From positions 62,001 to 126,000 of the forward strand of contig JAFTUG010000009.1 in the NCBI GenBank assembly GCA_017466365.1: a stretch of DNA of 64,000 bases, given 5' to 3'. The notes below the pieces were generated by a model. That model saw only the letters and a program-made list of their open reading frames with translations, was not told the DNA's origin and searched no databases. This DNA comes from Clostridia bacterium. Its GTDB lineage: Bacteria > Bacillota > Clostridia > Oscillospirales > Acutalibacteraceae. The translations under genes and the position numbers were made by a program. This document shows positions 41,941 through 60,912 of this stretch, piece by piece (the first letter of the stretch is position 1; every line of letters begins with the position of its first letter).

Positions 41941-42087
41941 ATGGCAACTAAAACAGAGAGTGTAGCAATTAAGGTTACGCCAGAAGAAAAAGAATTAATT
42001 AAGAAATTAGCAGAAAATGCTGATATGACAGTATCAAAGTATTTATACAAAGTTATATAGGGGGTATTAAACAATGAGAGATATTAA
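41941..42087 (+). CDS. Small ribbon-helix-helix-type protein (one TAG codon)
   Basis: 48 residues with TAG read as Gln: VAIKVTPEEKELIKKLAE and MTVSKYLYKVI match RHH proteins such as plasmid mobilisation or Arc-like regulators. TAG at 42058-42060 would end it at codon 39; read through, it continues QGVLNNERY to TAA. AGGAGTG precedes the ATG. It is the first gene of the recoded block. Confidence 0.7.
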
Positions 42088-42538
42088 AGGATATGAGGGC
42101 TTATATGCCGTTACTAGTTGCGGAAAAGTATGGAGTTACCGCAGTTAGAAATTTTTGAAACCAGCAGATAATGGACACGGTTACTTATCTTTAGTGCTTA
42201 TTAAAGACGGAATAAAGAAACATTACAGAGTGCATAGGTTAGTAGCAGAAGCTTATTTAGGTGAAGCACAAGGAAGAGATGTTAACCACAAAGATAGTTG
42301 CAGGAGTAATAATAATATTAACAACTTGGAATATGTAACTAGAAAAGAAAACTGCAAACTAGCTAATATGAGTGGTAGAACTGGCAAAGTAAAAGTTATT
42401 TGTGTTGAAACTGGCGCAATATATGAAAGTTAGGCAGAAGCCACAAGAGAAACGGGAATAGGAAGATACAATATTAGTAATTGTATAACTGGAAAACAGA
42501 AAACCGCAGGCGGTTATCATTGGGAGTGTGTAGAATGA
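42074..42538 (+). CDS. HNH homing endonuclease (NUMOD4-HNH-NUMOD1), two TAG codons
   Basis: 154 residues with TAG as Gln. NUMOD4 (1-55: IKGYEGLYAVTSCGKVWSYR), HNH core (YRVHRLVAEAYLG, VNHKDSCRSNNNINNLEYVT) and NUMOD1 (about 100-150, ending KQKTAGGYHWE). TAG at 42146-42148 lies within NUMOD4, and TAG at 42431-42433 falls in the NUMOD1 start (YES-Q-AEATRETGIG), where family members have similar polar residues. Its start overlaps the preceding gene. Such nucleases nick DNA near their own insertion site. Confidence 0.88.
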
Positions 42539-42972
42539 ATAGCGGTGCAATAGGTAGGGTTGGTGAATTACTCTTTTAGGAGATAATGGAAAACGGCGGC
42601 TATACTGTAGAAGATGTTAGCGGCAATAGTGAATACTGGTATAGAGATATTGATTTTTTAGTTACTTCTCCATATAGCGGTTTAACAAAATCATTTGAGG
42701 TTAAATGGGATAGCCGCATTAATAAAACTGGTAACTTATTTTTAGAGATAGCCAGCGCAAACAGTAAAGGCGGTAAAGGCTGGTTTAAGTTCTGCGAAGC
42801 TGACTATATAGCATACGGAGATGCGGCAAGCCGCAAGTTTTATGTTATTCCACTTCTGGAACTTAAAGAGAGAGTAGCGCAGTTGCCGCAGAGATAGGCA
42901 AGATGCGGCTAGGAAAGTATAGGTTTATTAGTATCATTAAATGATATTAAAGATATTATAAAAATTATATAA
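42535..42972 (+). CDS. PD-(D/E)XK-type nuclease, three TAG codons
   Basis: 145 residues with TAG as Gln. GRVGELLFQEIMENGGYTVEDV, YRDIDFLVTSP and SFEVKWDSRI provide the Asp ... Glu-x-Lys pattern of restriction-like or Holliday-junction-type nucleases; exact class uncertain. TAGs at 42577, 42895 and 42910. In the standard code only a fragment could be made. The start overlaps the HNH stop (GAATGA). Confidence 0.75.
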
Positions 42973-42984
42973 GGGGGAATTACA

Positions 42985-43164
42985 ATGGCAATTATTTTAA
43001 TTTTATTATGGTGGGTATTAGTTTAGTTATCTGCTCCTACTTGGTGCTTTGTGCTTCTGGCGGTGGTAGCTTTTCTAAAATGCCTAGATGCTTTTATAGA
43101 AGCAATAAAAACAGTAATAGAAGCATACGACAAAAAACTAATTGAAAAGGCAAATAAGAAATAA
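42985..43164 (+). CDS. Small membrane protein (one TAG codon)
   Basis: 59 residues. Hydrophobic stretch from residue 2 to about 36 (ILILLWWVL-Q-LSAPTWCFVLLAVVAFL) followed by a charged helix. TAG at 43024-43026 lies within the membrane segment. AAGGGGG precedes the ATG. Unknown; it could be a superinfection-exclusion or holin-like protein. Confidence 0.6.
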
Positions 43165-43179
43165 GGGGGCGGCGCAATT

Positions 43180-43332
43180 ATGCAGGATTATTTAAAGGAA
43201 TTTAGAGAAAAACTCAATTTAAAGGATAAGTTTGATTAGGCTTTACTTCTGGATACAATGTTATTCATTGCAGAAGCAGAACAGAGAAAAAAGGGCAATA
43301 ACAATAAATCAAGCAGTAACAAAAGTAACTAA
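43180..43332 (+). CDS. Small helical phage protein (one TAG codon)
   Basis: 50 residues, charged helices (YLKEFREKLNLKDKFD-Q-ALLLD ...) and an Asn/Ser/Lys-rich tail. TAG at 43237-43239. AAGGGGGCGG precedes the ATG. Family not recognised. Confidence 0.5.
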
Positions 43333-43347
43333 TAATAGAGGCTAAAT

Positions 43348-43453: not shown

Positions 43454-43798
43454 ATGGCTAGAACAATTACAACTAAACAAAGAGCGGCGCTGGAAATGCT
43501 TACTTCTGGCAAAGGTTACACTTTTAAAGAGATAGCCGAAACAGTAGGAGTTAATGTAAAGACACTTTATGACTGGCGCAATAACCCCGATTATACCCTG
43601 TTTCAAGACGAGCTAAAGCGCATAAATGATGCACGCTGGCAAGCGGCAGAAGATGCGGCTAGAGAGGGCGCAATAAACCTATGTAGGGAAGGTAATTAGA
43701 AAATGATAGAATTTGTATTAAAGAACTGCGGCTACAACCCTACAAGCAAAGTAGAGGCAGATGTAACACTTGATACAGTAATTGAAATTACGGAATAA
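43454..43798 (+). CDS. terS: Terminase small subunit (phBC6A51-type HTH), one TAG codon
   Basis: 114 residues with TAG as Gln. An N-terminal HTH (TFKEIAETVGVNVKTLYDWRNN), a central helical segment, then CREGN-Q-KMIEFVLKNCGYNP. TAG at 43697-43699 falls at a position in the GNxKMIEFVLK block that normally carries Gln, and the coding frame resumes with the conserved end of the family. It recognises the packaging site. AGGCGGTGAG precedes the ATG. Confidence 0.88.
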
Positions 43799-43813
43799 AA
43801 GGAGTAGATAGAA

Positions 43814-44503
43814 ATGGCTAAAACAAATACAGGATTAGTAGCATACGCAAAAGCGCAATTAGGTTTACCTTATTGGTACGGCACTTTTGGATAGACGGCA
43901 ACAGAAGCGCTTTATAAAGCAAAGGCTAAACAATATCCCAGTAGATACAAGCGCTCTAATTATAATCAAGGCTGGGCGCACTAGTACGGCGCAAGAGTAC
44001 ACGATTGTGTAGGACTTATTAAGGGGTATTTATGGAGTGATACTCCTACAAGCGCTCCTAAATACAAGGCGGCGCAGGATTTAAGCGCTGACGGAATGAT
44101 TAAGGCTTGCAAGAGAAAAGGCGCTATAAAAACAATGCCAGAAGTTGTAGGGCTTTTGGTACATTACAAAGGACATATAGGGGTATATATCGGTAACGGC
44201 TATGTAATTGAAGCAAGGGGGCATAATTACGGAGTTGTAAAGACAAAGTTAAGCGATAGAGGCTGGACTAGCTGGGGCTATTGCCCTTTTATCACTTATG
44301 CAACCGCCGCAAATTACTTTAAAAAGTGTGATGCTAAATATACTTCTATTGTTGATGCTCTTGGTAGTATCGGAGTTAATAGCTCTTTTAGTTATAGATT
44401 AAAGATAGCTGGTGCTAATGGAATTAAAGGATATGTAGGAACGGCGCAACAGAACATTAAATTATTAACCCTTCTAAAGCAAGGCAAGTTAATTAAGCCT
44501 TAA
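43814..44503 (+). CDS. Endolysin, NlpC/P60-like cell wall hydrolase, two TAG codons
   Basis: 229 residues with TAG as Gln. YWYGTFG-Q-TATEALYKAKAKQYP, then H-Q-YGARVHDCVGLIKGYLW with the catalytic Cys, and HIGVYIGNGYVIEARGH with the catalytic His. The C-terminal part (about 165-229) is probably a wall-binding or peptidoglycan-binding module. TAGs at 43892 and 43982. It is placed between the two terminase genes rather than beside the holin, which is unusual. AAGGAG precedes the ATG. Confidence 0.87.
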
Positions 44504-44519
44504 CAGGAGTTAATAAACA

Positions 44520-45758
44520 ATGGCAGTTACACTAAAACTTGATAAATCTATATTTGTTCCTAAATACTATCCTTTATTGTTTAACTATTCGCATAGGTGG
44601 GAAATTTATATGGGTAGCGCTGGCTCTGCTAAATCCTACTTTATAACACAAAAGATAATTGCTAGATGCTGGAACGAGCCTATAAAAGTTTTAGTTTGCC
44701 GCAGAACTGCTACAACTATTAGAAACACTTGTTTTAGCTTGTTTAAGGATATACTAACCAAATGGCGGCTATATCCGCAGTATGTGAAGATAAGGGAAAC
44801 AGATTTTAATATTAAATTCCCTAATGGCTCTGAAATTATCTTTAGTGGGCTTGATGAAGAAACAAAACTATTAAGCCTTAATAATATAGGTTGCATTTTT
44901 ATAGAGGAAGCATTTGAAGTGCCAAAGCCAATAGTAGAGTAGTTAAACCTACGATTAAGAGGCACTACCCAGAATAAGCAAATTATAATGGCTTTTAACC
45001 CTATTAGCAAAAACCATTGGCTTTATGATTTCTGCGAGAAAGAGCCGCCGCAGAGTTTTATATACATACATAGCACATATAAAGATAACCCTTTTCTAGA
45101 TGAAGAAAATAGAAAAGCATTAGAGGAAATGCGCACCAGAAACCCCAGTAAATATAGGGTTTATGGCTTGGGTGAATGGGGAGTAGATGTAGAGGGGCTA
45201 GTAATTACCAACTGGCGCACAGAAGAATTTAACCCTATGGAGTTAGCGGCTCTTGGATATGAACATAGAGCAGGAATGGATTTAGGCTGGGTAGATAAAA
45301 GCGCAATTATTAATACTCTTTATGACAGAGCAAATAAAACTATATATGTATTTGATGAATTTTATAAAAGCGGTTGCCAGTTATCGGAACTTGCTACGGC
45401 TCTAAAAGATATGTAGCTAACAAAAACAAAAGTATATGTAGATGCCGCAGAAGCACGAAGTATAGCCTACTTCAAGCAAGAAGGGTTAAGGGCAGAAGCC
45501 TGTAAAAAGGGTGCAGGAAGTGTTAAAGCTGGTTTAATGTTCCTGCAAGATTGCCTAATAATAGTACACCCTAATTGTAAAAACTTTATTATGGAATTAG
45601 AAAACTTTAGCTATATAAAGAGCAAGCAAACAGGAGAATTTACAGAAGATACTACACACGAATATTCGCACGCAATAGATGCTTGCAGATATGGATATAG
45701 TGATATTTACACACAACAGAAATTAAAAACTATAAATAAATCTACACTAAATTTATAA
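44520..45758 (+). CDS. terL: Terminase large subunit, two TAG codons
   Basis: 412 residues with TAG as Gln. ATPase Walker A GSAGSAKSY (32-40), Walker B IGCIFIEEAFE (about 124-134), motif AFNPISKNHWLY, and RNase-H-like nuclease residues in AGMDLGWVDKSA and VYVDAAEARS, with the last acid in HEYSHAIDACRYG. TAG at 44940-44942 sits in IVE-Q-LNLRLRG, where Terminase_3 proteins nearly always have Gln. The other TAG is at 45414. It packages DNA into the prohead. CAGGAG precedes the ATG. Confidence 0.95.
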
Positions 45759-45772: not shown

Positions 45773-46069
45773 ATGATTGAATATTTATATAACGCAATAG
45801 TTGCCAGCGCTGAAACAGATATAGAGATAGTAGCAAAGGTAACAAGCGCAGAGGGCGCACCGATTAATAGTAATTGCAACCTAGTATTATACGATAATGA
45901 CGGCGCAGAAAAATATATTGTTAATGGTGAAACAGTAGATACTAATGGCTACTGGCGCTTTGTCATTCCAGCCGATGAAACAAGGGGTAAAAAGAACAGT
46001 AGATTATTTTACTGCATTAGAGAAGGTAATAAACCACTTTGTTTTAAAGAGCCTGTTTATTTGATGTGA
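45773..46069 (+). CDS. Phage beta-domain protein, likely tail/baseplate accessory
   Basis: 98 residues, all beta-type, with an Ig-like or BppU-N-like look (TDIEIVAKVTSAEGAPIN ... YWRFVIPADETRGKKNSRLFY). No TAG. The stop is TGA. It sits before the tail-fibre-like gene between terminase and portal. Function inferred from context only. Confidence 0.6.
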   Translation: MIEYLYNAIVASAETDIEIVAKVTSAEGAPINSNCNLVLYDNDGAEKYIVNGETVDTNGYWRFVIPADETRGKKNSRLFYCIREGNKPLCFKEPVYLM

Positions 46070-46079
46070 GGTGTTATAA

Positions 46080-47714
46080 GTGGCTATTGAATTAATAAAA
46101 CAAAAAGCAAATATAAACCTAGAATCAGAGCAAGACGAACTAAATTTTAAACAGGCTCTAAAGGGTGAAAAGGGAGATAGCGGCTTTTCTCCTATTGTAG
46201 AAGTGATTGAGGCAGAAGAAGGACACAATGTTGTTATTACAGACAATGAAGGGGTAAAAACCTTTTTTGTTAAAGACGGTGAAAGCGGCACAACTCTAAC
46301 AAGTGGAGATAATACAGTAGTAGAAGATAATGCTATTAATGTTTATACAAATACTGGCTATATAATTAGTGATAATGATATTAGATTATAGCCAATATAT
46401 GATAATGGAACTTCTGGAACTAATAAATTAGTTTATACAGATAATGAAGTAATGGTTATATATAATGGCGGTATATATATCAAAAGAAGTGAAAACGGCA
46501 TTGATTTTGAAAATATTAGATTGCCATTTAGTTGTAAATCTATGTTTTATAATCCAATTAGCAAAAAGATTTATGGATTATGTGTTAATAGTTACTTTAT
46601 ATATAGCGAAGATGACGGATTAACTTGGCAATTAAAACAACATAACATTGCTGGCGGTGCTGACTATATATGCAGAGCGCAAGCACATATCGGGGGCTTT
46701 GCATTAATAAATAAAACCTCTAAAAAGTTATATGGGTTAACTGAAAACTTTGTTTAGAGTGGTGGGGCAATAACAAGCACTATTGTTCCAGAGTTTTTAA
46801 CACAGTTTGCTCAACACCAGTTTATTTGGTGCAATACCGCAGGCACTTTTAAATATGGCGCAGGAAGTCAAGAGGGTAATTTTGCTTCTCTTACTCTTAC
46901 TGGATTTGAAAGGGTTAGTTGTTTAGTGAATATTGAAGGTTATCCAATAGTAGGTTTAAGTAATAGCCAAAGGATTTTTAGATTAAAGAATTTTAGCGGT
47001 GTTACTGATAATGAATGGGTTGAATATACCTTACCGCAAACTTGCTCTGTTTATGACATTACTTTTAATCCATACGATAAAACATATTACATACTTACTA
47101 ATGTTAATACTTATTTTAAAACTAAAGATTTTATTGAATATGAAAGTATAGATGCAGACGGATTAAGAGGTAAAGATGCAGAATTTACTTTAATGGGTAT
47201 TCAAGCAACAGTAGAGAATGAGCCAAACAAGCTGCTTTTAGCGCCAACTAGAACAAAGTTAGAAAATAAAGCGCAAGAATGGGATAGAGCGCTAGATAAA
47301 AGTAGATGGGTTGGCAATGGATTAGAACTGGTTGGAGAATAGATTAATGTAAAACCAGCAAGCGAAACTATAAAAGTTACTGCAAGTGGAATTTAGCTAG
47401 GAATAGTAGATGAATACCATATAACCGAAAATATGCTAAAAGCTATTTATTTATCGCTTGCTGACTTGTGGGTTAGCTTTAATCCAACGGATATGGAAAC
47501 TTGGTTTTGGGAAAGCGGATTCCCAGTAGATGATAGTTTTATAGCACATAAATTTATATTTAGTGAAGCAGGAACTTTTTATGAATAGTTAAATTGGGAA
47601 ATTGAATATACGGTAGAGCAATACGAATATGGTTATATGTTTGTTGATGCTACTAACAATATTACTGAATATGTGAAATTAGGAAACCTATCTAGTCTTT
47701 TAAATAAGGGGTGA
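46080..47714 (+). CDS. Tail fibre / receptor-binding-like protein, five TAG codons
   Basis: 544 residues with TAG as Gln. The N-terminus has LKGEKGDSGFSP and VKTFFVKDGES, typical of phage tail fibres. The middle contains beta-propeller/BNR-like segments (YSEDDGLTWQL, SRIFRLKNFSG-type) and the C-terminal 120 residues form a separate domain. TAGs at 46389, 46755, 47340, 47394 and 47586. The start is GTG at 46080 behind GAGGTG. It likely recognises a host surface glycan; this is inferred. Standard decoding would yield five fragments. Confidence 0.75.
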
Positions 47715-47719: not shown

Positions 47720-47893
47720 TTGTTAAATCCAGATAATATTTACAGAATGAAAGATAATAGCTTGATAGCTATATACAACATTATTAAGGACAGATTAGAA
47801 ACAGAAGAATTAAAGCCTAGTGTAGAAGCAATATTTATTGTTAATCTTGATATTCTAAAGTTAGAAATAGATAGAAGGGGGCTAAATGTGTGA
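47720..47893 (+). CDS. Small phage protein before the portal gene
   Basis: 57 residues from a TTG at 47720 with AAGGGG 9 bases upstream. Two helices, charged, no TAG. Its TGA overlaps the GTG start of the portal gene. Unknown. Confidence 0.5.
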   Translation: MLNPDNIYRMKDNSLIAIYNIIKDRLETEELKPSVEAIFIVNLDILKLEIDRRGLNV

Positions 47894-49212
47894 TTTATTT
47901 ATCTAAAGAAACAGAATTAACAACAGAACTGTTACAAAAACTAATTAACAAGTTTACTGTTGAGAACTTACCCAGATTAAAGAAGTGGGAAAACTACTAT
48001 AAAGGCAGACACGCAATATTAAATAAGAGTTATAAAGACAGTAGCAAGGAATGTAACCATATTGTAACAAACTACTGCAAGATTATTACTGATACCTATA
48101 GCGGCTATATTTGCGGCAAGCCTGTTACATATACCAGCAACAATGATATTGAAGATGTGCAAGAAGTAATTAACTATAACGATAGCAATGCAGAGGATAT
48201 GTAGTTTTTAACTAATGCTCTTGTTTATGGTGTTAGCTATGAGTTGAAATGGCTAGATAGATATGCGCAAGTGCGTTATTCACAAGTTAACCCTACTTCT
48301 GGCTTTGCTATTTATGATAACACATTAGATTGTGAATTGCTTTATTTTGTGCGCTGGTATAAGGAAAACACACTAGATGAAAGCAACGATTATATTATTG
48401 AAGTATATAGCGCTTTTGAAAAGATTAGATACAGAAGCGCAGGACTAGGCGGCGCACTTACACACATTGATAATGAACAACACTATTTTAAAGATGTTCC
48501 AGTTAGTGTGTTTTATCTTAATGAGAATGAGGAAAATATTTTTAACTCTATTATCACTCTTAACGATGCTTACAATGAATTACAAAGTAGTGAAATTGAT
48601 GATTTTAATGCTTGGGTTGATGCCTATTTAGTGTTAAAAGGGGTTGATGCGGAAACAGACGATATAGCCGCAATGAAAGAGAATAGAGTGTTAGTATTGC
48701 CTAGTGATGCAAGCGCAGAATGGTTAACCAAAAATGCTAATGATACACAGATTGTTAATATGCTTGACAATATTAAAAAGAATATTTTTAAAGTTACCGC
48801 TTGCCCAGATATGGCAGACGAGAATTTTTTAGCGCAGAGTGGAACGGCGCTAGCCTATAAATTAGTAGGATTTGAAAATGTAGCTAGCGGCATTGTAGCA
48901 AGATTTACAAAGGCTTTACAAAGAAGAATTGAACTAATTTGCAATGTGCTAAACCTTAAAGCAAGTGAGGCAGTATGGAGAGATATTAATATTAATTTTG
49001 TTAGAAACCTACCAGTTAATATTACTGAAACTATCCAGTTAGTTAATAACCTTAAAGGCTCTGTTTCAGATGCTACATTAATTAGCCAGTTACCATTTAT
49101 TGATGATGTTAACGCAGAATTAGAAGCACTCCAGAAGCAGAAACAAGATAACATTGCGCTTTACTCCTTCGGCTCTCCTGCTTCTGGCGCAGAAGATGAA
49201 GAAGAAGCCTAA
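47890..49212 (+). CDS. Portal protein (SPP1 gp6-like), one TAG codon
   Basis: 440 residues with TAG as Gln. RLKKWENYYKGRHAIL, NHIVTNYCKIITDTYSGYICGKPV, the stem-region helices and FGSPASGAEDEEEA at the acidic C-terminus are typical of SPP1-type portals. TAG at 48202-48204 (AEDM-Q-FLTNALVYG) interrupts residue 105. The start is GTG at 47890 after AAGGGGG. It forms the dodecameric DNA entry ring. Confidence 0.9.
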
Positions 49213-49287: not shown

Positions 49288-50070
49288 ATGAGTAATAATT
49301 ATTGGGCTGAACGAATGGCAAAAGCGCAAGATAAGATAACATAGAAACATATAGAAGATGTTGAAAAACAGTTATCTAAATACTATTCAACAGCTATGAA
49401 GCGCACTATAGCAGACTTTGAAGCAACCTACGATAAGTTACTAGCAACTGTAGCTGACGGTGTAGAGCCTACTCCAGCGGATTTATACAAGCTGGATAGA
49501 TACTGGGAACTGCAAGCACAGTTAAAAACAGAACTAGAAAAACTGGGAGAAAGACAAGTAAAGTTATTTAGTGATGCTTTTGAGGAATAGTTTTTTGATA
49601 TATATAACTCTATTTCTATTCCTTCTGCAACGGCATATAGCACTATTGATAAAGGAATAGCGCAACAGATGATTAATCAAATATGGGTTGCAGACGGAAA
49701 GAACTTTAGTTAGAGAATATGGGGCAACACAGAAAAGTTAATAGAAACTCTTAACGAGGAATTAATAAATTGTGTTGCTACTGGAAGAAATACAAACGAA
49801 TTAAAACAACTGCTACAAGAAAGATTTAATGTTAGTTACTCTAACGCAGATAGCATAGTTAGAACTGAAACGGCGCATATACAGACACAAGCGGCTAAAC
49901 AAAGATATACCGATTACGGAATACAAGAGGTTGAAGTGTGGGCTGATGAAGATGAGCGCAGATGTGAAGTGTGCGGCAAACTTCACTAGAAGCGATACCC
50001 AGTAGGCGCAAATATGCCTATACCGGCGCACCCTAGATGCCGTTGCGCTATTATTCCGGTAGTAGATTGA
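49288..50070 (+). CDS. Head morphogenesis protein (SPP1 gp7 / Mu F-like), four TAG codons
   Basis: 260 residues with TAG as Gln. Characteristic block at the C-terminus: VRTETAHIQTQAAKQRY, EVWADEDERRCEVCGKLH-Q-KRYPVG and HPRCRCAIIPV. GKNFS-Q-RIWGNTEKL is also restored. TAGs at 49342, 49588, 49711 and 49987. A minor capsid protein involved in head assembly and DNA entry. GGAGTG precedes the ATG. Confidence 0.9.
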
Positions 50071-50185: not shown

Positions 50186-50752
50186 ATGACAGAACAAACA
50201 ATTAACACTAGTGTTGAAACAGAAGCAGTAGAAACAACTGCAACAGAAGAAGTAAAAACCTACACACAAGATGAAGTATTAGCGCTTTTATAGAGTGAAA
50301 CAGATAAAAGAGTATCACAGGCGCTAAAGACACAACAAAAGAAATACGAAAAACAGCTATCTTTATCAAAACTTGACGGAGATGAAAGAGCAAAGGCAGA
50401 AAAGGATAACCGCATAGCAGAACTAGAGGAACAGTTAGCGGCTTTTCAGATAGAGCGCAACAGAAGCGAATTAAAAAGTGTTTTAGGCTCTAGAGGTTTG
50501 AGCGCTGAATTTGCTGATATTATCGCAATTAATGATGATATTGAGGCTTCGCAAGCAAACATTGATAAATTAGACAAGCTGTTTAAAGCGGCGGTTAAAG
50601 CAGAGGTAGAGAAAAGGCTAGCAGGAAGTGCGCCAAAAGGAAACACTACCAGCGCCGCAGAAATTACAAAAGATACTGCTAAAAAAATGAGTTTAGCAGA
50701 ACTACAAGAACTGGAAAGAACAAACCCAGAACTATTTAACAAATTATTTTAA
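50186..50752 (+). CDS. Capsid scaffolding protein (DUF4355-like), one TAG codon
   Basis: 188 residues with TAG as Gln. TYTQDEVLALL-Q-SETDKRVSQALKTQQKKYEK followed by a long coiled coil and an Ala/Lys C-terminus; matches DUF4355 scaffolds. TAG at 50291-50293 falls early (residue 36). It lies directly before the major capsid gene, as is usual. TAGGAGAG precedes the ATG. Confidence 0.88.
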
Positions 50753-50769
50753 TTAGGAGGCTTTTTATA

Positions 50770-51540
50770 ATGGCTAATACAGTTTATTCAAATAAAATTA
50801 TTGAAGCAAAAGCAAAGGATTTACTTACAACTGCGGTTAATACTCGTTCACTTATGACTATTGATAATGAGTTAGCACAGGGCGCAGGAATGACAAAAAC
50901 AGTTAATGTTTACACATATAGCGGAACTGCTGAAGAAGTAGAAGCAGGACAGGGCAACACTAACAGAGGCTCTATTAAATATGTTCCTACTGATTACACA
51001 GTAAAAATGGTACAGTAGGCTTTTGATTATCAAGATGAGGATTTTATGAAAGATAATACTATCGTTGATAATATGATTAAGGGCGCTAATCAAGTAATGG
51101 TTAATAAAATGACTGCTGATTTTATCGCAGAGTGCGCAAAGGCTACACTTTCACATACTTTTACTGCTTTTGGTTATGAGGCTATTGTTGACGGTATCGC
51201 AAAGTTAAACCTTGAAGATGAAAGCAAGTTATTTGTAGTTATTCCTAATGCTTGGAAAGCTGATTTAAGAAAAGATGAAGATTACAAGAGCGCAAGAATG
51301 GGCGAAGTTATCTATAACGGATAGGTTGGCACAATTTGCGGTATTCCTGTAATTGCTACTAATGCTCTTACCGATGCGGCTTATGTAATGAGCGCAGAAG
51401 CAGTTAAACTCTTTATGAAGAAAGATGTAGAAGTAGAACAGGATAGAGATGCAGACACAAGAACTAATAGTGTTTACCTTCGTACTGCATATCTTGTAGC
51501 ACTTGTAGATAATACAAAGATTTGCAAACTTTCACAGTAA
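50770..51540 (+). CDS. Major capsid protein, two TAG codons
   Basis: 256 residues with TAG as Gln; a small HK97-fold capsid protein (AKAKDLLTTAVNTRSLMTID, YTVKMVQ-Q-AFDYQDEDF, LFVVIPNAWKADLRKD, YNG-Q-VGTICGIPVIAT). TAGs at 51016 and 51322. Even the most abundant virion protein cannot be completed with the standard code. TTAGGAGG precedes the ATG. Confidence 0.88.
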
Positions 51541-51895: not shown

Positions 51896-51897
51896 TA

Positions 51898-52188
51898 ATG
51901 ATTAACGCAGATATGCGCACTTATGATTATTACACCTATAGCGGCTTTAATGAATATGCAGAGCCGCAGTTATCAGAAGAAGTGCAAGGCTCTATTAAAA
52001 TTGCAATTTATACAACTTCTCAAAATGTAACAGATAATATCAACTATAGAGATGCTAACTATATAGGATTAACCAGAGCAAGCGCAGTAGATGATAGTTA
52101 TGTTATTCAGTACGGAGAAGAAAAACTAAAAGTTCTCTATATCCAGTCAAAAGGCAGATTTAAACAGGTATTCTTTAAAAAGATATGA
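51898..52188 (+). CDS. Head closure / head-tail joining protein
   Basis: 96 residues, beta-rich (IKIAIYTTSQNVTDNINYRDANYIGLTRA ... EEKLKVLYIQSKGRFKQVFF). Position between gp6-like and gp10-like genes and the fold pattern suggest a head-tail stopper. No TAG. Its TGA overlaps the next ATG. Confidence 0.7.
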   Translation: MINADMRTYDYYTYSGFNEYAEPQLSEEVQGSIKIAIYTTSQNVTDNINYRDANYIGLTRASAVDDSYVIQYGEEKLKVLYIQSKGRFKQVFFKKI

Positions 52189-52676
52189 GTATTTAGCTAG
52201 AAGGATTAGAGGATATTTTAGCAAGTATAGAGCAAGTAGCAGACACTTCAAATTTAGATGATGCGCTAGGCAAGGCTTGTGCAATGGTAGAAAGAAGCGC
52301 AAAACAGAAAGCGCCAAAAGGTGAAGGAACATTAAGGCGCAGTATTACAAGCAAAGTAGAAGATAATCAAGGAATAGTTTTTACTCCGTTATTTTATGCG
52401 CCCTATGTTGAATACGGAACAGGCATTTATGCAGAGGACGGCAAGGGGCGGCAAAATGTGCCGTGGGTATATGTTGAAGGCTCAACTAAAGAAAGTAGCA
52501 GTAGTAAAACATACACCGAACAAGAAGCAGAGGCGGCAGTAGAATATTTACGCAGTAAAGGGCTAGAAGCATATAAAAGCTATGGTAGAAAGCCAGAGCC
52601 TTTTATGCGCCCTGCGCTATATGAAAACAGAGAAAAAATATTAGAACTTATTAAGGGGGAATTGTTAAATGATTGA
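52185..52676 (+). CDS. HK97 gp10-like tail component, TAG as fourth codon
   Basis: 163 residues with TAG as Gln. AKQKAPKGEGTLRRSITSKVED, PYVEYGTGIYA and GRKPEPFMRPALYENRE are the HK97-gp10 family blocks. TAG at 52194-52196 is the fourth codon, so standard translation gives a tripeptide. Start overlaps the previous stop (ATGA). Confidence 0.85.
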
Positions 52677-53013
52677 TTATACCCCTAATTTAGTAGCAAC
52701 ATTACAGACAATATTACCTACACACTATGAAATGGTATTAACAAGCAAGACGGCTACACCGTGTATAAGCTATATGGAGCTAAACAACAATATGACGGAA
52801 ACAGGAGATACACTAGGATATAGCCGCATTACATACTAGGTTAAAGTGTGGGGAAACGATATTAAAACAGTTACTAAATATGCTCTAGAGGTTGATAAGG
52901 CATTAAAACAACTGGGATTTAAAAGAATATCCAGCGGAGAAATGCACGATAACCAGAGTACAATTATTCAGAAAATACTAACCTATGAAGCATTGGCTTT
53001 AGAAAATTATTAA
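52669..53013 (+). CDS. Tail completion/terminator protein, one TAG codon
   Basis: 114 residues with TAG as Gln. NLVATLQTILPTHYEMVL, SRITY-Q-VKVWGNDIKTV and the helix VDKALKQLGFKRI match DUF3168-like tail terminators. TAG at 52837-52839. It overlaps the preceding gene by 8 bases. Confidence 0.75.
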
Positions 53014-53030
53014 TATAGGGGGCTTTTATA

Positions 53031-53420
53031 ATGGCAGTTATTAGTAAAGGTATTACTTTATCATACAAGGAAAGCACAGGTAGCACTTTTGTAGAACTTG
53101 AAAACCTACAGGAGATTCCAGAGTTAGGCGGAGATACAGAGGCTATTGAAATTACCACTTTAGCAGATGCCGCACATATGTATACAGACGGCATTAAAAA
53201 CTATGGTGATAGCCTAACATTTAAATTCCTTTATGAAAAAGAATAGTTTAGCACACTTAACGCACTTGCAGATAGTGTTGAATGGAAGGTAGAACTACCA
53301 GACGGCGCTACTTGCACCTTCGGCGGCACTTGCTCTGCTAAACTTGACGGAGTAGGAGTTAATGCGGCTCTTACTTATACATTAGCAGTTAAGCCTAATT
53401 CAGAGATGAAATGGGCATAA
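53031..53420 (+). CDS. Major tail tube protein, one TAG codon
   Basis: 129 residues with TAG as Gln. VISKGITLSYKESTGSTFVELENLQEIPELGGDTEAIEITTLADAAHMYTDG is typical of tail tube proteins of this phage type, ending with the beta strand LTYTLAVKPNSEM. TAG at 53244-53246 (LYEKE-Q-FSTLNAL). GGGGGC precedes the ATG. Confidence 0.85.
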
Positions 53421-53440
53421 CATAACCCATTAATGGGAGT

Positions 53441-53462
53441 AGTGGAGAGTATTCTCTCCACT
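53441..53462 (+). terminator. Hairpin after the tail tube gene
   Basis: AGTGGAGAG-TATT-CTCTCCACT, 9 bp; a small CCCATTAATGGG palindrome stands just before it. No T-run. Confidence 0.5.
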
Positions 53463-53501
53463 CTCCACTACAAATTTATATAAATCAAGGAGAGATTAAA
53501 A

Positions 53502-53837
53502 ATGATGTATGTTGACTTTTCAGCAGGTAATAAAGAATACAAATTAAGATTAAATACAAGAAACATTGTTACACTTGAAAAATAGTTAGGTTGTAATCCT
53601 TTAGCGCTTTTCGGTGACGGCTCTACAATGCCAACAGTAACAGAAATGGTTAATGTATTGTATTGTGCGCTCCAGCCACTTAATCACGGAATAACATTAA
53701 ATGATGCTTATGATATTTTTGATGCTTATTTAGCAGACGGTAACGGCGCAACAGACTTTATTACAGTAATTTTAGATATTTACAAAGTATCAGGACTTAT
53801 TAGAAATGAAGTTAAGGAAGAAACCGAAAAAAACTAA
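53502..53837 (+). CDS. Tail assembly chaperone G-type, one TAG codon
   Basis: 111 residues with TAG as Gln. YKLRLNTRNIVTLEK-Q-LGCNPLALFGDG and YCALQPLNHGITLNDAYDIFDAYL match the DUF6096-type chaperone found before the tape measure gene. TAG at 53583-53585. The end of the gene (GAA AAA AAC TAA) is a -1 slippery site that fuses it to the next frame. AAGGAGAG precedes the ATG. Confidence 0.85.
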
Positions 53838-53862
53838 TTAAAGGAGAGGCTAGCCCTTCTCC
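53828..53862 (+). promoter_or_regulatory. Programmed -1 ribosomal frameshift signal
   Basis: A AAA AAC (53828-53834) lies in the correct phase at the end of the G-type frame; after 8 bases a stem GGAGA-GG / CC-TCTCC (53843-53862, one bulge) follows. Slippage moves translation into the -1 frame, which is open from 53834 to 54238. Confidence 0.88.
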
Positions 53863-54238
53863 ATTCTTATTTAGTGATTATTTGTATAAATGGTTAGAAA
53901 ATGCTCTGGATTATGGGATTAGTGAGGCTGACTTTTGGAATATGACACTAGCGGAACTGGAGCGCCTATTAGATAGCAAGCGCCGCACCCAGAAGCGGCA
54001 AGCACAAGAAAAGGCTACATTTGATTACATATTAGCAGATTTAATAGGGCGCAGTATATCTAGGTTATATAGCGCTAGTAATGAAATGCCAGATATAGCA
54101 ACAGTATATCCTACTCTATTTGACACTAAACAAATAGAAGAACAAAAGAGCATTAAAAAGGCTGAATTATCTGCGGCAAGGTTTAGACAGTTTGCAAATT
54201 CCTTTAATGCTAAAAGGGGGCAACAACTGAATGAATGA
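53834..54238 (+). CDS. Tail assembly chaperone T-type extension, made by -1 frameshift
   Basis: 134 residues added after the frameshift: LIKGEASPSPFLFSDYLYKWLENALDYGISEADFWNMTLAEL and a basic helix (RRTQKRQAQEKATFDY). This matches the second half of Siphovirus tail chaperones (GT proteins). The fusion is about 245 residues. No ribosome binding site exists for independent translation (only a TTG at 53882). No TAG. Its end overlaps the tape measure start. Confidence 0.85.
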   Translation, partial: LIKGEASPSPFLFSDYLYKWLENALDYGISEADFWNMTLAELERLLDSKRRTQKRQAQEKATFDYILADLIGRSISRLYSASNEMPDIATVYPTLFDTKQIEEQKSIKKAELSAARFRQFANSFNAKRGQQLNE

Positions 54239-56072
54239 GCAATTAAAAATTATAATTTCGGCTGAAATAGACAAATTAAAGAAAAATGTTGATGAAGCAA
54301 AGAGCAAGGTTGGCAGTTTTAAAGATGAAGTTAACAAGGCTTCAAAGAATGTAGATAAAGATTTTAAAGCGGCTGGAGAAGCAATAAACAACGGAATGAA
54401 AGTAGGGGCGGCGGCGCTTACTGGTGTTGCTACTGCTTTACTTGCTCTTGGCGAAAGTACAAAAGAATATAGAAACGAATAGGCAAAATTACAAACAGCT
54501 TTTGAAACCGCAGGCGCTAGCGCAGAAGTAGCAAAAGGAACATATAACGATTTATACAGAGTTCTTGGAGATACAGGACAGGCTACAGAAGCGGCGGCGC
54601 ACTTGGCGCAATTAACAACTAATGAGCAAGAGTTAAGCCAATGGACTAATATTTGTCAAGGTGTTTATGCTACTTTTGGCGCTTCTCTACCTATTGAAGG
54701 TTTAACCGAAGCGGCTAACGAAACTGCAAAAGTAGGACAAGTTACAGGCGGCTTGGCTGATGCTCTTAACTGGGCTGGTATTAGTGAAGATGCTTTTAAT
54801 GAAAAACTGGCGGCTTGCAACACAGAAGCAGAAAGAGAAGAATTAATTAGAGAAACCCTAAACGGAATTTATAGCGAAGCGGCGGCAAACTATGAAAAGA
54901 ATAACGCATAGATTCTGGCGCAGAATGAAGCACAAGAAAAATTAAACTCTGCTATGGCTACTCTGGGTGAAGCAACTGCGCCTATTATGACAATGCTAAC
55001 CAGTTTAGCAGGAGATGTATTAAGTGCATTAACACCTTATGTAAAGGATTTTGCGGATAACTATTTACCAGACATTCAAGAAGCATTAAAGACAGTAGCA
55101 GAGAAACTAGAAAGCGCTTTAACATTCTTAATGGAACATAAAGCTATTTTAGGGGTTATGGCTGGTATTATCGGAACTGTTGTTACTGCTATTGGCTTAT
55201 ATAATGCGGTTGCGGCGGTTAAGGCGGCAATGGATGCGGCACAAGTTACTACTTTAGGTGGTTTAATCGCAGTTCACGCAGCACACGCAGCGGCGGTTAT
55301 GGCTTCTCTAGCGCCTTATGTTGCTATAGTTGCGGCAATAGGGGCAGTTATCGCTATTATTGTTGTTTGCGTTAAGCATTGGGACGAGATAAAAGCAAAA
55401 GTTATAGAAGTTTGGAACGCAATGAAAGAAAAGATTTCAGAGGCTAAAGAAAAAATAGTAAACAAAATTACTGAATTAAAAGAAGGAATACAAAACAAAA
55501 TTAATTCAGTAAAAGAAAATATCAGCAATACCTTCAACAACATTAAAGAAGGTATGCAACAGAAAATCCAGAGCGCAAAAGAAAATGTATTAGGGGTATT
55601 TGATAAAATCAAAGACGGAATTAAGAAAAAAATAGAAAGCGCAAGAGATACCGTTAAAAATGTTATAGAGAAAATAAAAGGCTTTTTTAACTTTGAGTTT
55701 AAGTTACCGAAGTTGAAAACTCCTAAATTTGCTATTTCTCCTGTTGGCTGGAAAGTTGGAGATTTATTATAGGGTGTTATACCTAAATTAAGTGTTCAAT
55801 GGAACGCAAGAGGCGGTGTTTTTGACAAGCCTACTATTTTTGGATATGGTAATAGCCTACAAGGTATCGGAGAAAACGGCGCAGAGGCAGTAGTACCACT
55901 AGAAAACAATTTAGAATGGTTAGATAAACTGGCTACTATGTTAAATGATAGAATGGGCGGCGGCTCTCCAGTAGTGCTACAAGTAGATGGTAAAACATTC
56001 GCTCAAATTAGCTTTGATAGCATAAATCAATTCATAAAACAAACTGGCAACTTGCCAATACAACTAGTTTAA
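54231..56072 (+). CDS. Tail tape measure protein, three TAG codons
   Basis: 613 residues with TAG as Gln. N-terminal coiled coil (EIDKLKKNVDEAKSKVGSF), Ala-rich tape region (GDTGQATEAAAHLAQLTTNEQELSQWTNICQGVYATFG), a hydrophobic transmembrane-like part (about 300-390), amphipathic repeats (NKINSVKENISNTFNNIKEG), and a C-terminal end with GENGAEAVVPLEN. TAGs at 54480, 54909 and 55770. Its length suggests a fairly short siphovirus tail. Confidence 0.9.
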
Positions 56073-56088: not shown

Positions 56089-56445
56089 ATGAGTTACTTT
56101 AAAATTAATGGTGTTGATTATTCAACCTATGTTAGCGGCTTGAAGGTTGCTAAAAATCATATATATAATTCACAAACTAATGCGGCTGGAGATACAGTAG
56201 CGGATTATATCAACTCTAAAAGAGTGATAGAAGTTAATATTATTCCTGTTGATGCGGCGGCGCTCTCTACTCTATTAACAACTATTGATTAGTTTAATGT
56301 TACACTATCATTCCTTAATCCGCAGACAGGCGCAATAGAGGATAATATAGCTTGTATTATTCCCAGTAATGCTATTGAGTATTACACAATACAGGCAGAT
56401 AAAGTATTAACAAAAGCATTTAATTTAAGTTTTACGGAGTTATAA
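56089..56445 (+). CDS. Tail protein (DUF6711-like), one TAG codon
   Basis: 118 residues with TAG as Gln. FKINGVDYSTYVSGLKVAKNHIYNSQTNAAGDTVADYINSKR is the family start. TAG at 56290-56292 (TTID-Q-FNVTLSFLNP). AAGGGGG follows the previous stop. It is located between tape measure and the large tail protein, like distal tail proteins. Confidence 0.75.
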
Positions 56446-56458
56446 GGGGGTATTAGTA

Positions 56459-58492
56459 ATGTTAATAAATGATATTGTGCTAGCCTCTTTAAGAACTCCT
56501 GTTAGAACAGTAGAAGGTAGAGCCGAAGTATATAATAGTGACGGCTCTACCGCATATTCTTTAAGAAGTGATAGCTATTTAAAAGAGTTTAAAGTAGAAC
56601 GCATAGGAGATAACACAAAATTCTTTGGATATGGCTTTGTTCACAAGGCTAATGTAAAAGCAAGAGATGTAAACAGAGAAATTGAATTAAGTACAAGTAA
56701 TACAGTATTACCATACTTTATTGATAGAACAAGCGGAGAGCCAGTAGAGATTAAGACATATCCAAAAATGAATATTACAGAAGTTAATAGAGATGAAAAT
56801 ACAAACGAACTTTCTATAACTTGCTATGATGCGTTATACAAGGCTACAAAACATAAAGTAGAAGAACTGGCGCTAACCGTTCCCTATACCATACAAGAGT
56901 TTGTTGTAGCTTGTGCTTCACTATTGGGAATTAGTGGTGTTACAACAGTAAATGTTACTGATGATTGCTTTAGTGTTTCATATCCAGAAGGGGCAAACTT
57001 TGAAGGAACTGAAACTATTAGAGATGCACTAAATGCGGCGGCGGAAGCAACACAAACTATTTACTATATAGATAGTAATAATATACTGGTGTTTAAAAGA
57101 TTAGATATTAGCGGAGATGCGGTATTTAATATTGAAAAGGCTGATTATATCCAGTTAGACAGTAAAACAAACAGAAGATTAGCAACTTTAGTTAGCGCAA
57201 CTGAATTAGGAGATAGTTTAGAAACCACTCATAAGGTATATAACAAGAATATGGCTGATTATCACTAGGCAGTAAACCCAGCAGGAGAAACTTTTACAGA
57301 AGTTGATAACGGTTATGTAATTGATGTTAGCGGAGAAGATTATAAAAGAATTTCTTTTATACCCTTAAATAAAGAACTTAAAGCAGGAACTTATTATGTA
57401 ATTAGTTATGATTGGGTTAATATCGGCACAGAAGAAACAAGTAGTGTAGCCTGTTATTTACCAGATATAGAGCAGTATTTAAGTAATGGTGTAGCATTTA
57501 CACCAAAAGAAGATACACAAAAAATAGGGATATACCTACAAGCCGCAGATGTAGGAAAAGATATTCAAGTAGAAATTACAAATATACAACTTGAAGAAGG
57601 AACGGCGGCTACTGACTATGTACCCTACGGCTACTATTATTTAACTGGTACAACTCAATATATTAGGGATAATCCATTTTGGGATTTAAGAGAAGATAGA
57701 ACAACATTGTTAGAAAACGCACTAGCGGCGGTTGGTGGTTTAACCATTAACTAGTTTGAGTGTAACTGGAGAGGTAATTATTTACTTGAAATTGGAGATA
57801 AGATTAGCCTAGAAACTAAAGATAATAATACGGTATATTCATATATACTAGATGATACAATACACTACAACGGCGCATTAAGTGAGGCTACACAATGGAA
57901 TTACACAGACAATGAGGAAGAAACAGAAGCAACGCCTACAACACTAGGAGATGCAATTAAACAAACCTATGCTAAAGTTGATAAGGCTAATAAACAAATT
58001 GAAATAGTAGCAAGCGAAACTAACGCTAATAGTGAAGCGATAGCCGCAATTAGATTAGATACAGATAGTATTAATGCTTCTGTATCAAAAGTTGCAGAAG
58101 ATACTACCGCCGCAATAGAAGCGGCAAATAGTAGCATAGCAACATTAACTACTAAAGTTGATGCTTCTATAACCGCAGAGAATGTATAGTTAGTAGTGTA
58201 GAAGGAATTAGAAAACGGAGTAGAAAAAGTTACTACTTCAACTGGATTTACTTTTGATGATGAAGGACTAACTGTATCAAAGACAAATAGCGAGATTAAA
58301 ACGCAAATAACCGAGGACGGAATGAGCGTTTATAAGAATGAGGAAGAAGTATTAACCGCAAATAATGAAGGAGTAAAGGCGGCTAACCTTCACGCAACAA
58401 CCTATTTAATTATAGGTAATTATAGCCGCTTTGAAGATTACACTAATGCAGACGGAGAAGCAAGAACTGGTTGCTTCTGGATTGGTGATTAA
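56459..58492 (+). CDS. Tail-associated/minor structural protein, four TAG codons
   Basis: 677 residues with TAG as Gln. The first 270 residues resemble gp27/siphovirus tail-hub proteins (ELSTSNTVLPYFIDRTSGEPVEIKTYPKMN, TIQEFVVACASLLGISG). A carbohydrate-binding-like module follows (about 270-400: GYVIDVSGEDYKRISFIP ... ITNIQLEEGTAATDYVPYG). The C-terminus is coiled, with ENV-Q-LVV-Q-KELENG. TAGs at 57266, 57752, 58187 and 58199. Confidence 0.85.
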
Positions 58493-58503
58493 GGGGGTAT
58501 TAA

Positions 58504-60591
58504 ATGGCTAGCGGAACAATAACAGGAACAACGAGCAATAAGTATATTAGTGCTAAAATTGAGTGGAGTAGCACAGCAGACACAGCTAACAATAAATCTA
58601 CTGTAACGGCGAAACTTTATTATATGAAGTCAACAGCTTCTACTACAGCTACTAGCGGTGTTATTAATGCAACTATTACTATTAATGGTAATAAATACAC
58701 ATATAATTCTGGCACTAGTAAAACATTACCAGTAGACGGCAAATGGTATTATATTACTGAACACGAGGTAGTAGTAGCGCATAATTCAGACGGAAAGAAA
58801 AGTATAACAATTAGCGCTACTGGCGGTATGACAGGAAGTAGTTTTACCTCTACAAGTTTAAGCGGAACGGCAGTATTAACGGATATTCCCAGAAAAGCAA
58901 CAATAACAAGCGCACCTAATTTTACTGATAGTGATAACCCTACTGTTTACTATTCTAATCCAGCAGGAAGTGCAGTAGATTCGCTAAAAATTTGTATTTC
59001 ATCTACTGGCGCTAGTGATGATATAGCAAGCTATAGGAGTTGTTCACAAACTGGTAGTAGTTATACTTTCTATCTAACCAGCGCTGAAATTAGCAGATTA
59101 AGAGCATTAGTTACTAGCGGCTCTAGCGCAAGTGTTAAGTTCTATCTTAAAACTACAATAGGTGGAACTGATTACTATAGCACAGTTACAAAAACATTCA
59201 CTATTAGCGATACCTCTGTTACTTTCAGTTATAACATATACGATACAAACAGTTTAACAACATCTTTAACTGGTGATAGTAGCAAGATAGTTAAAGGCTA
59301 TAGTAATGTTTATTATAGTTATTCTGCAAAATCCAATAGTGGCGCTACAATTACTAGTAATAGTATTAGTTGCGGCTCATAGTATTCAACCGCAACAAGC
59401 GGCACATTTAATAAAGTAGAAAGCGCAAGCTTTGTATTAAAGGCTACAGACAGTAGGGGCAGTAACTTTAGTACAACAGTAACAAAAACATTAATTAACT
59501 ATTTTAAACCTACACTAAATATGACAGTTTACCCACCTAATGCAAGCGGTGATATGATACTAGTATTTACTGGGGCTTTTTATAATGCTTCTTTTGGAAG
59601 TTCAACAAATACTATTACAGTTAGATATAGTATCAGCCACGAAGATAGTGGCTTTAGTTAGGGCGGCGCAGTTACACTATCCAAAAGCGGTAATAGCTTT
59701 ACTGGATAGGTTAATATTACTGGGTTAGATTATAAAAATGTTTATGTAATTAGCGCTAATGCTTATGATTTACTTGATGAAATACAACTAGAGCCAGTTA
59801 GAGCAATAGGAACACCTGTTTTTGATTGGGGAAAAGAGGATTTTTCTTTTCATTGTAAAGTGAATATGGATATGTCAGATGCTATTTATGGCACAAATAC
59901 AAGCGGAGAAAAAGTAGAGGCGCTTATGCCCTGTAATGGTTATAATAACCTTTCTTTAGGTTATGGTGGTTATAGTAATGGAGAAGGCGCAACTGATATA
60001 TGGGGTAATTATGTTACTGTATATTGTAAAAATGATATTGATTTAAGAAGTGATACCCATTGTTACAATGATTTAACAGTTGACGGTGCAACAACACTAA
60101 ATGATGATGTGGATATTAATGCTGATTTACAAGTAGAAAATGTGAAAGTTAATAGCAGTATTAATGTTAGCCTTGATGTAAATTGTGTTAATACTGTAAA
60201 TGCGGCTAGAGTATGTATAAACAGTAAAGATGTAGGAGCGCAAACAACACTAAAAAGCGGCATATATCAATATATGCACGGCACACAATCATTTACTTTA
60301 AGTGGTACAAGTGCATTAAGTAAATAGTTAACTGGATATATAATGGTGTGGAGCTATTATAGTAATGGTAATACTTATGTAAACTGTACTAATTATACTT
60401 TTGTACCAAAAAGTGTGTTAGGTTATAACGGTGGGCGCATATCAATGCCTTTAGTATTAGATGACGGAACTTGTGGCGCAAAATCTTTAATAATTACAGA
60501 AAGCGATGGAGTAACAACTATTAAGGGTGAAGAAAGAAACGATGACGCACCTAATAACAACTGGGTATTAAATAAAGTAATTGGTTATTAA
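58504..60591 (+). CDS. DUF859-like tail/baseplate protein, four TAG codons
   Basis: 695 residues with TAG as Gln. ASGTITGTTSNKYISAKIEWSS and YNSGTSKTLPVDGKWYYITEHEVVVAHNSDGKKSI are typical of siphovirus DUF859 proteins; the later part has LDYKNVYVISANAYDLLDEI, GTPVFDWGKEDFSFHCKVNMD, and a C-terminal receptor-binding-like region. TAGs at 59380, 59659, 59707 and 60325. Likely a host-recognition tail component. Confidence 0.85.
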
Positions 60592-60603
60592 GGGGGTTAA
60601 CAA

Positions 60604-60912
60604 ATGGAATTAACAACTTTTTTAGAACTTCTTGCTAATTTTGGTTTTCCTATTGCTTGTGTAGTTGCTATGGGCGCTTTTATCTATCATATATACCAAA
60701 CAACAACAAAAGAAAATGCGGCTAATATGGCGGCAGTATAGGCAAGATGCAAAGAGCGAGAAGAAATATTATATAGTGAGATAGCGCAAAATAGAGCAGT
60801 AAATGAAAAAGCAATAGAAACCATTGCGCAGTATGCGGAGAAATTAGAAACAATACAAACAGATATTAAAGAGATAAAAACAGATATTACAGTTATTATG
60901 GCTAAACAATAA
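60604..60912 (+). CDS. Holin-like protein (BhlA/UviB-type), one TAG codon
   Basis: 102 residues with TAG as Gln. One N-terminal transmembrane helix (FGFPIACVVAMGAFIYHIYQ) and a charged tail AV-Q-ARCKEREEILYSEI with QYAEKLETIQTDIKEIKTDI. It matches the BhlA/UviB bacteriocin-holin family. TAG at 60739-60741 is at the usual position of that block. It is far from the endolysin gene. AAGGGGG precedes the ATG. Confidence 0.87.

Follow-up and report, generated by a model that had tools for sequence, protein, structure and literature searches.

How can a phage that is integrated beside genes in the standard genetic code produce late proteins from genes interrupted by TAG codons? The question is raised by a stretch of 64,000 nucleotides (nt) from a Clostridia bacterium (GenBank assembly GCA_017466365.1, contig JAFTUG010000009.1, positions 62,001 to 126,000), here called the window, in which an initial annotation had described a prophage with a TAG-recoded lytic module. 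The source genome is a 2.06-Mb draft in 20 contigs (79.6% complete). The prophage (38605-61224 of the window) is inserted in the host GGGtGRT gene (37738-38736; PF14057 E 4e-195) and is flanked by a 116-nt direct repeat that copies the 3′ end of that gene; 97/116 positions are identical, with a longest identical run of 26. A tyrosine integrase lies after the left repeat, so that the integrase and the flanking attachment (att) repeats of a temperate prophage are both present. The G+C content in 2-kb bins is 0.32-0.38 in the prophage compared with 0.40-0.48 in the host part. The element is probably a temperate siphophage-like prophage of 22.6 kb. That it is integrated beside standard-code host genes, as first annotated, is borne out by the integrase, the att repeat and the host use of TAG as a stop in 2 of 54 long open reading frames (ORFs).

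The late module (41941-60912) comprises 27 consecutive genes, all on the + strand, that run from a regulator-like ORF through HNH, nuclease-like and two small genes to the terminases, and then to portal, head, connector, tail, tape measure and distal genes and a small last gene. These contain 43 in-frame TAG codons and no in-frame TAA or TGA, and end in TAA (19) or TGA (8), never in TAG; this recount agrees with the figures annotated initially. The 22 TAG-bearing genes had been described as consecutive. They are instead spread among the 27, five of which (those at 45773, 47711, 51602, 51898 and 53882) are TAG-free. Both terminase subunits, the portal, the capsid, the tape measure and an NlpC/P60 endolysin-like gene each carry TAG, as had been claimed. 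The presumed holin also contains one TAG, but its profile matches are to two families of unknown function and, weakly, to an Rz-like spanin. One of the 43, at 42058 within the ribbon-helix-helix-like ORF, could be a real stop, since few codons remain behind it, those overlap the next gene, and the G-run of that gene starts right behind; the other 42 are secure. The interruption of the late module by TAG is thus a confirmed observation.

Decoding TAG as sense restores the coding density expected of such a region. Coverage of 41901-60950 by ORFs of at least 100 amino acids (aa) rises from 0.42 under standard decoding to 0.89 when TAG is treated as sense, compared with 0.47 for TGA and 0.64 for TAA as sense; the same measure gives 0.90 for window positions 1-38600 in the standard code. 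The initial annotation had proposed comparing TAG-as-Gln with standard decoding by protein length and profile coverage, and had named frequent TAA or TGA interruptions as what would tell against recoding; none was found in the 27 genes. It had also argued that decay would not strike one stop codon only. Single-step routes to TAG make up 26-28% of all single-step routes to any stop, and the chance that indiscriminate nonsense decay would make all 42 stops TAG is ~1e-25 to 1e-23. Aligned over 81,425 residues, 44 relative loci contain 72 TAG but no TAA or TGA; 58 TAG remain once the near-copies L092, L046 and L096 are removed. The pattern recurs in genome G133 (Oscillospiraceae bacterium SIG575) and in locus L097, and on the shorter fragments L101 and L035. 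That the element is a decaying relic, with TAGs that are nonsense mutations, could be argued from its integrated state, the att repeat that is only 84% identical and the lack of a recognised replication gene; given the stop spectrum and its recurrence we consider this extremely improbable, and pseudogene decay of the genes was rejected on that spectrum. Regulated readthrough at single sites was likewise set aside, the TAGs being scattered along the genes with no obvious sequence context, as was host-wide recoding, the host having both TAG stops and RF1.

The identity of the inserted residue was examined in pairwise tblastn columns opposite the TAG sites of the window. Averaged over 33 TAG columns, glutamine (Gln) has the best BLOSUM62 score (1.41), followed by Glu (0.59). 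Five columns are conserved at 80% or more among five or more relatives, and each of them is Gln. At the TAG columns relatives use CAG most often (114), then CAA (61) and AAT (24), in a count from which only L092 was dropped as near-identical. The Gln signal is weaker than that at CAG and CAA columns (mean scores 2.27 and 2.09). Within the 27 genes TAG would then be one of three Gln-type codons (CAA 108, CAG 55, TAG 43). The alignments thus support the reading of TAG as glutamine within the late module. Pyrrolysine or another residue was set aside on the basis of the conserved columns, with no search made for pyrrolysine genes. The original proposal of TAG recoding in the late module is backed jointly by codon counts, by coding and family coverage and by the residues in relatives.

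A search with the terminase large subunit (TerL) found a clade in viral contigs (50-81% identity among the matches listed), together with the genome locus L080, which belongs to G133 (a draft that is 98% complete), and L081. Among the matches listed from 300 family genomes, TAG occurs inside the terminase only in the window and G133. The prophage of G133 sits at a corresponding att site and has 32 TAG in 14 of 22 genes counted, without TAA or TGA; L092 duplicates its sequence (99.97% identity over 15.4 kb). G133 and L097 are recoded across the genes seen, as are L101 and L035 over their shorter lengths. The terminase tree requires five changes of the recoded label. Placing the five recoded TerLs as one clade is rejected (p 1.8e-10), as is placing window and G133 TerL as sisters (p 1e-52), a pair chosen after the first tree was seen; the repeat tree left out L110 (mis-framed, with 48 mixed stops), L109 (a long branch), duplicates and one outgroup. 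Near-identical loci drawn from L092, L037, L038, L046, L049, L096, L032, L034, L088, L104 and L105 were dropped from some counts. The comparison shows that most relatives examined lack TAG in their aligned late genes, and that recoding is patchy, with several origins or transfers.

The late genes are mosaic, and the rank of G133 (L080) among the relatives of window genes varies from first to 24th; it has no match for nine window genes, four of which lie past the end of the locus. Four TAG sites coincide between window and G133. The two insert at the same att site and have in common two reverse-strand genes, a non-coding stretch and an integrase that is 72% identical at the DNA level; a scan of viral contigs with the integrase matched only the L092 contig. 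Gene ends were also scored. Otherwise standard loci (i.e. those without TAG in aligned late genes) end in TAG at 21 of 234, and recoded relatives at 2 of 19. One of these two, in the L080 MuF gene, is internal, as the 418-aa protein aligns to a 394-aa protein of L097 almost to its end; the other, in the L035 HNH gene, may be a genuine stop. The C-terminal extension of the G133 minor head protein has TAG at 9/11 Gln codons compared with 5/17 in its MuF part. Extensions of this kind, of unassigned function, are present in the MuF proteins of L088 (gene at 8765-10021) and L097 (gene at 12559-13743) and absent from the 260-aa protein of the window; that of G133 is very TAG-rich. MuF proteins of temperate phages can bear C-terminal effector domains. 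In L097 a tape-measure match is followed by a tRNA-like fragment and an integrase, identified by reading, an arrangement that looks like an excised or permuted genome.

TAG is not distributed evenly within the prophage. The integrase and four small early genes have none at 22 Gln codons, compared with 42/205 in the later genes (Fisher p 0.009). In relatives, integrases have TAG at 0/49 Gln codons in seven otherwise standard loci and at 0/71 in the recoded loci; the latter figure takes in the window, and the G133 integrase enters it twice through the overlapping L080 and L087. A TAG in an early gene of L031 precedes the likely start. These genes would thus remain compatible with the standard code of the host.

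In the phages without TAG in their aligned late genes, in-frame TAGs precede the small terminase and lie chiefly in the PD-(D/E)XK-like nuclease. In 20 such loci the Gln-type codons of the nuclease are TAG 26, CAG 28 and CAA 40 (26/94 TAG), while those of the aligned late genes (19 loci with late data) are TAG 0, CAG 739 and CAA 916 (0/1,655; p 2.6e-35). Eight of the 20 loci have TAG in the nuclease, with no TAA or TGA in those nucleases. The extreme case is L031, with 10 TAG in 145 codons (10/11 Gln codons) and none at 62 in its aligned late genes. L029 has two TAG in the HNH gene instead, and a winged-helix gene in six loci has TAG at 3/35 Gln codons; at two of its sites Gln and TAG are swapped between L031 and L093 in opposite directions. 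Counted within hidden Markov model envelopes, the otherwise standard loci have TAG at 0/169 in the terminase small subunit, 0/150 in the capsid and 0/195 in the tape measure, with 2/384 in TerL (L095 and L109) and 1/383 in the portal (L102); these three TAGs were not individually inspected, and the L095 and L109 TerL match spans held none in the tree data.

The nuclease assignment is based on the motif E...D...ExK, where E11, D38 and K57 are invariant and E55 near-invariant in 16 sequences. The window protein has no Pfam match; the L031 homologue matches NOV_C at 22.3 against a cut-off of 22.1, with a TnsA-like match below cut-off, and the endonuclease PDB 2ost is matched at E 0.64, ranked behind two non-nuclease matches. 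Residues opposite TAG (Lys and Glu first) are like those opposite CAA and CAG, with no conserved Gln. The family was found in 2 of 398 family genomes and in eight viral contigs in one scan (one of them new), and in none of 50,697 phage records with two queries.

The TAG-bearing nuclease and its neighbours in standard-code relatives might be passive hitchhikers, recently recombined from recoded phages and untranslated. Heavy mosaicism, the disparity within L031, the TAGs in adjacent small genes of the same phages and the 12 TAG-free nucleases of the 20 speak for this. The aligned TAG-bearing nucleases are 22-71% identical to that of the window, making a single recent donor unlikely, TAG is present in 8 of 20 loci, and none has TAA or TGA while the catalytic residues are retained. 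We treat passive transfer as a serious possibility whose chances fall somewhat below even. A different view is that amber acts as a gene-specific lock, whereby the nuclease is kept TAG-interrupted even in phages that read TAG as stop, and is made only once amber decoding appears; its later spread would lead to recoding of the whole module. The key would be a non-canonical factor of the phage (possibly the RNA at 41205-41330 discussed below) or a suppressor tRNA brought in by a superinfecting recoded phage; with the latter, the nuclease would serve as a sensor of foreign recoding. We consider such a gene-specific lock quite unlikely.

The explanation we favour, at a probability of about 0.6 for the whole, is that the late genes follow a TAG=Gln code, with the integrase and small early genes staying compatible with the standard code, that TAG serves as a translational lock, and that a factor encoded in the left arm of the prophage decodes it. 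In the lysogen, ribosomes would halt at UAG, so that nuclease, lysis and virion proteins would not be produced from leaky transcription. After induction an amber-decoding factor would insert Gln at UAG. This factor would not be a canonical prophage tRNA. Its favoured source is the left arm at 38.7-41.9 kb: of the loci compared, only the recoded prophage of G133 also has this arm, whereas the late modules are mosaic. The factor could be an RNA that has escaped recognition, or a small protein that impairs RF1 and thereby lets Gln-tRNA read UAG. The lock may start at the nuclease and then extend to the late operon. The clade suggests such a path, with the nuclease gene recoded first, the late operon next and the integrase untouched.

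Several points weigh against this explanation. We infer the locking function from gene position only, and the contrast between early and late genes rests on a small sample of 22 codons. In only 15 of the 33 TAG columns does Gln score best of all residues, and its share in relatives is 0.33 at TAG sites compared with 0.45 at CAG and 0.41 at CAA sites. The nuclease is without TAG in the majority of otherwise standard loci. No replication gene was recognised by reading the prophage ORFs, of which the early ones were searched only in part, and the prophage may not be autonomous. No tRNA was found in the window prophage by ARAGORN or Rfam, and no decoding factor was identified. Neither was a CUA anticodon read among 28 tRNA matches in the host and 40 in G133 (E <=1e-3); at E <=10 there were four further weak matches, with anticodons unread. 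Both hosts are drafts, and a suppressor may sit on an unbinned element.

An ordinary suppressor tRNA might instead act in trans from a second element, resident in the cell or co-infecting it (a plasmid, another prophage or a recoded helper phage), that the assemblies lack; the prophage would then be produced only in cells that also hold the helper. Mobile elements are often missing from draft assemblies, and the lack of a recognised replication gene and of tRNA in either prophage (ARAGORN found none in that of G133) would fit such dependence. The search, which found no helper, was limited to two genomes. However, the G133 genome is 98% complete, and several lineages would each need helpers independently; we judge a helper unlikely. 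Across 42 clade records, many of them fragmentary, 11 had a tRNA match at E <=1, with no CTA among those seen. Weak matches in six relatives (18.6-32.4 bits) were taken by inspection as att-site fragments in which no CTA anticodon was read; those of G398, G400, G423 and G426 resemble the 5′ half of a tRNA, and those of G433 and G434 are without a normal 5′ portion.

Alternatively tRNA-Gln(CUG) of the host could read UAG as a near-cognate by G36-U wobble, with no phage factor required. The inserted residue is indeed Gln, tRNA-Gln(CUG) is present in both hosts, and TAG is rare as a host stop in G133 also (2/46 long ORFs). Yet RF1 is present and intact in both hosts, and the anticodon stem of the tRNA is an ordinary 5 bp. 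Moreover, leaky reading would hardly pass the 14 TAGs of the G133 head protein or the 10 of one nuclease, and many related loci are TAG-free in the spans compared. We consider near-cognate decoding very unlikely. A tRNA-Gln with a 4-bp anticodon stem, an idea taken from PMC13092985, was rejected as decoder by these same ordinary stems.

Within the left arm, a relaxed scan for CTA cloverleaves gave one non-canonical candidate, at 41224, lying within a candidate structured RNA at 41205-41330. It has 5/5 anticodon pairs, 5/5 T-stem pairs and 5/7 acceptor pairs, and a T-loop GATAACA without TTC; the G133 copy, L092, L097, L101 and L035 gave none at that score. The region 41120-41392 is ~70% identical to the same place in G133 (alignment over 289 nt). 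Both hairpins show compensatory changes (CAGU/ACUG to GAGU/ACUC, and UAGUGU/ACACUA to UAACUG/CAGUUA), and CUA is retained in the first hairpin loop in both. The tRNA covariance model gave no match to this RNA at E <=10, with no T-loop and no CCA, and its fold was no better than that of shuffled sequences (z -0.5 and -1.0). The loop UAUCU is complementary to the adjacent loop GGAUA, which would give another reason for conservation of the loop letters. The CUA loop as the mark of a suppressor tRNA is therefore weakened, there being also only two distinct copies. A model of this RNA (R1) matched strongly only in the window and G133 (= L092). There was no strong match in the recoded L097, L101 and L035, so this RNA may not serve recoded relatives in general, although L035 and L101 are fragments (best L035 match E 3.2). 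The model gave four weak matches in other genomes at E 0.02-0.036, with further ones at E 0.13-5, and the sequence itself had weak DNA matches of 21-38 nt in ten other genomes, of which the eight that were read lie in unrelated context. That this RNA is the suppressor is speculative, and we consider it improbable.

Two terminator-like hairpins, identified by reading, lie after the RNA at 41478-41582 and 41864-41895. The G133 counterpart of the first stretch lies upstream of the RNA, so the region has been rearranged. A tRNA-Ile(UAU) is located directly upstream of the TAG-bearing nuclease in L043 (7738-7814), L045 (3208-3283) and L046 (8359-8434), a position comparable to that of the structured RNA in the window.

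The recoded core belongs to a kind already published. A passage of PMC10746230, citing its reference 23, states that alternatively coded prophages occur in standard-code hosts; they are alike in being integrated with an alternative code beside standard-code host genes, and the passage gives no clade or suppressor detail. The novelty implied by the initial annotation is weakened to that extent, while the integrated recoded phage itself is real. Reference 23 is said to be the work of Borges et al., reportedly a 2022 survey of stop-codon recoded gut phages in which late genes await a code switch. The prophage resembles the gut phages of genetic code 15 (crAss-like and Lak) in TAG=Gln, in its concentration in late genes and in having a standard-code host. 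Frequent late TAG with TAA and TGA stops, the rise in coverage and TAG=Gln were all found here; the phage CUA tRNA that is common, though not universal, in such phages was not. It differs further in being a small temperate phage with a relative in an Oscillospiraceae genome, in the lack of a suppressor tRNA found in the prophage or in the 98%-complete G133 host, and in TAG-sense lying mainly in the nuclease cassette in 8/20 otherwise standard relatives.

Recoded phages without a detectable suppressor have been noted earlier (PMC7886860, PMC12386605), reassignment is found mostly in late genes with switches over short phylogenetic distances (PMC7886860), and the usual reading is that late recoded genes wait for a code switch, with Gln peptides at TAG seen by mass spectrometry in two crAss-like phages (PMC9523058). 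Recoding has been proposed, with its own citation, as a lysogenic-to-lytic switch in temperate phages (PMC12386605). The function proposed there is the same, late genes being gated by stop-codon decoding, but those phages often carry suppressor tRNAs, where here none was found. The theta-ribozyme suppressor tRNAs described in PMC10879173 also decode UAG as Gln in gut phages; here no tRNA was found, and the Rfam matches at E <=5 include no ribozyme family, the theta-ribozyme coverage of Rfam being unchecked. A beta crAss-like phage that gained TAGs after gaining a suppressor (PMC7886860) presents a similar picture of intermediate stages among close relatives, but with an acquired suppressor tRNA and TAG in TerL, whereas here TAG is mainly in the nuclease and no suppressor was seen. 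Searches of an open-licence library listed no report of nuclease-first recoding. What may be added is that the lock may begin at the nuclease and that its key may not be a canonical prophage tRNA. We note that one recoded prophage lies in a host whose 98%-complete genome yielded no CUA tRNA, and that a 3-kb arm common to two recoded prophages narrows the search for the decoder.

Table 1. Features of the prophage, in window coordinates.
Feature	Position	Strand	Evidence
Left att repeat, GGGtGRT 3′ end	38605..38720		116-nt direct repeat; PF14057
Tyrosine integrase, 0 TAG	38809..39807	+	PF00589 E 5e-29; 15 Gln codons, none TAG
Cro-like helix-turn-helix (HTH) protein, 0 TAG	40180..40353	+	PF01381
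Two small genes, 0 TAG, common to G133 prophage	40392..40756	-	71% DNA identity to L080 over 40405-40779
Structured RNA candidate: hairpin with 7-nt loop AUCUAAA (CUA), beside hairpin with loop GGGAUA	41205..41330	+	
Ribbon-helix-helix-like ORF, 39-48 aa; TAG 42058 is true stop or readthrough codon	41941..42060	+	
NUMOD4/HNH endonuclease, 2 TAG	42074..42538	+	PF13392, PF07463
PD-(D/E)XK-type nuclease-like gene, TAG at 3/5 Gln codons	42535..42972	+	E...D...ExK pattern, 16 homologues
Two small genes, 1 TAG each	42985..43332	+	
Terminase small subunit, 1 TAG	43454..43798	+	phrog_2538 E 8e-14
NlpC/P60 endolysin-like gene, 2 TAG	43814..44503	+	PF00877 24.0 bits, cut-off 23
Terminase large subunit, 2 TAG	44520..45758	+	phrog_3717 E 6e-56
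Two genes without assigned function: 45773-46069 (0 TAG), 46080-47714 (5 TAG)	45773..47714	+	
Portal protein, 1 TAG	47890..49212	+	phrog_64 E 2e-116
MuF-like minor head protein (260 aa), 4 TAG	49288..50070	+	phrog_115 E 1e-57; PF04233
Scaffold (1 TAG) and major capsid (2 TAG)	50186..51540	+	phrog_172, phrog_544
Connector, major tail and tail chaperone genes, 4 TAG in total	51602..54238	+	
Tape measure protein, 3 TAG	54231..56072	+	phrog_1535 E 5e-35
Three distal late genes, 9 TAG; last (58504-60591) matching a tail family	56089..60591	+	phrog_372 E 6e-34
Small last protein, 1 TAG	60604..60912	+	phrog_9829 (unknown function), weak Rz-like spanin match
Right att repeat	61109..61224		

Some further observations concern the surroundings of the prophage and more distant terminases. 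Among the matches listed, the terminase of four family genomes (L235-L238, in G075, G186, G283 and G260) contains one in-frame TGA. TGA recoding around these was rejected, as coverage of the regions barely shifts (0.82-0.89 in the standard code, 0.83-0.94 with TGA as sense). A Cro/CI-like HTH gene lies at 61304-61624 of the window, just beyond the right att repeat. Downstream of the G133 prophage (L089 856-9764) there are two more integrase-like genes and extra copies of the GGGtGRT 3′ end in tandem, and the site seems to accumulate several elements.

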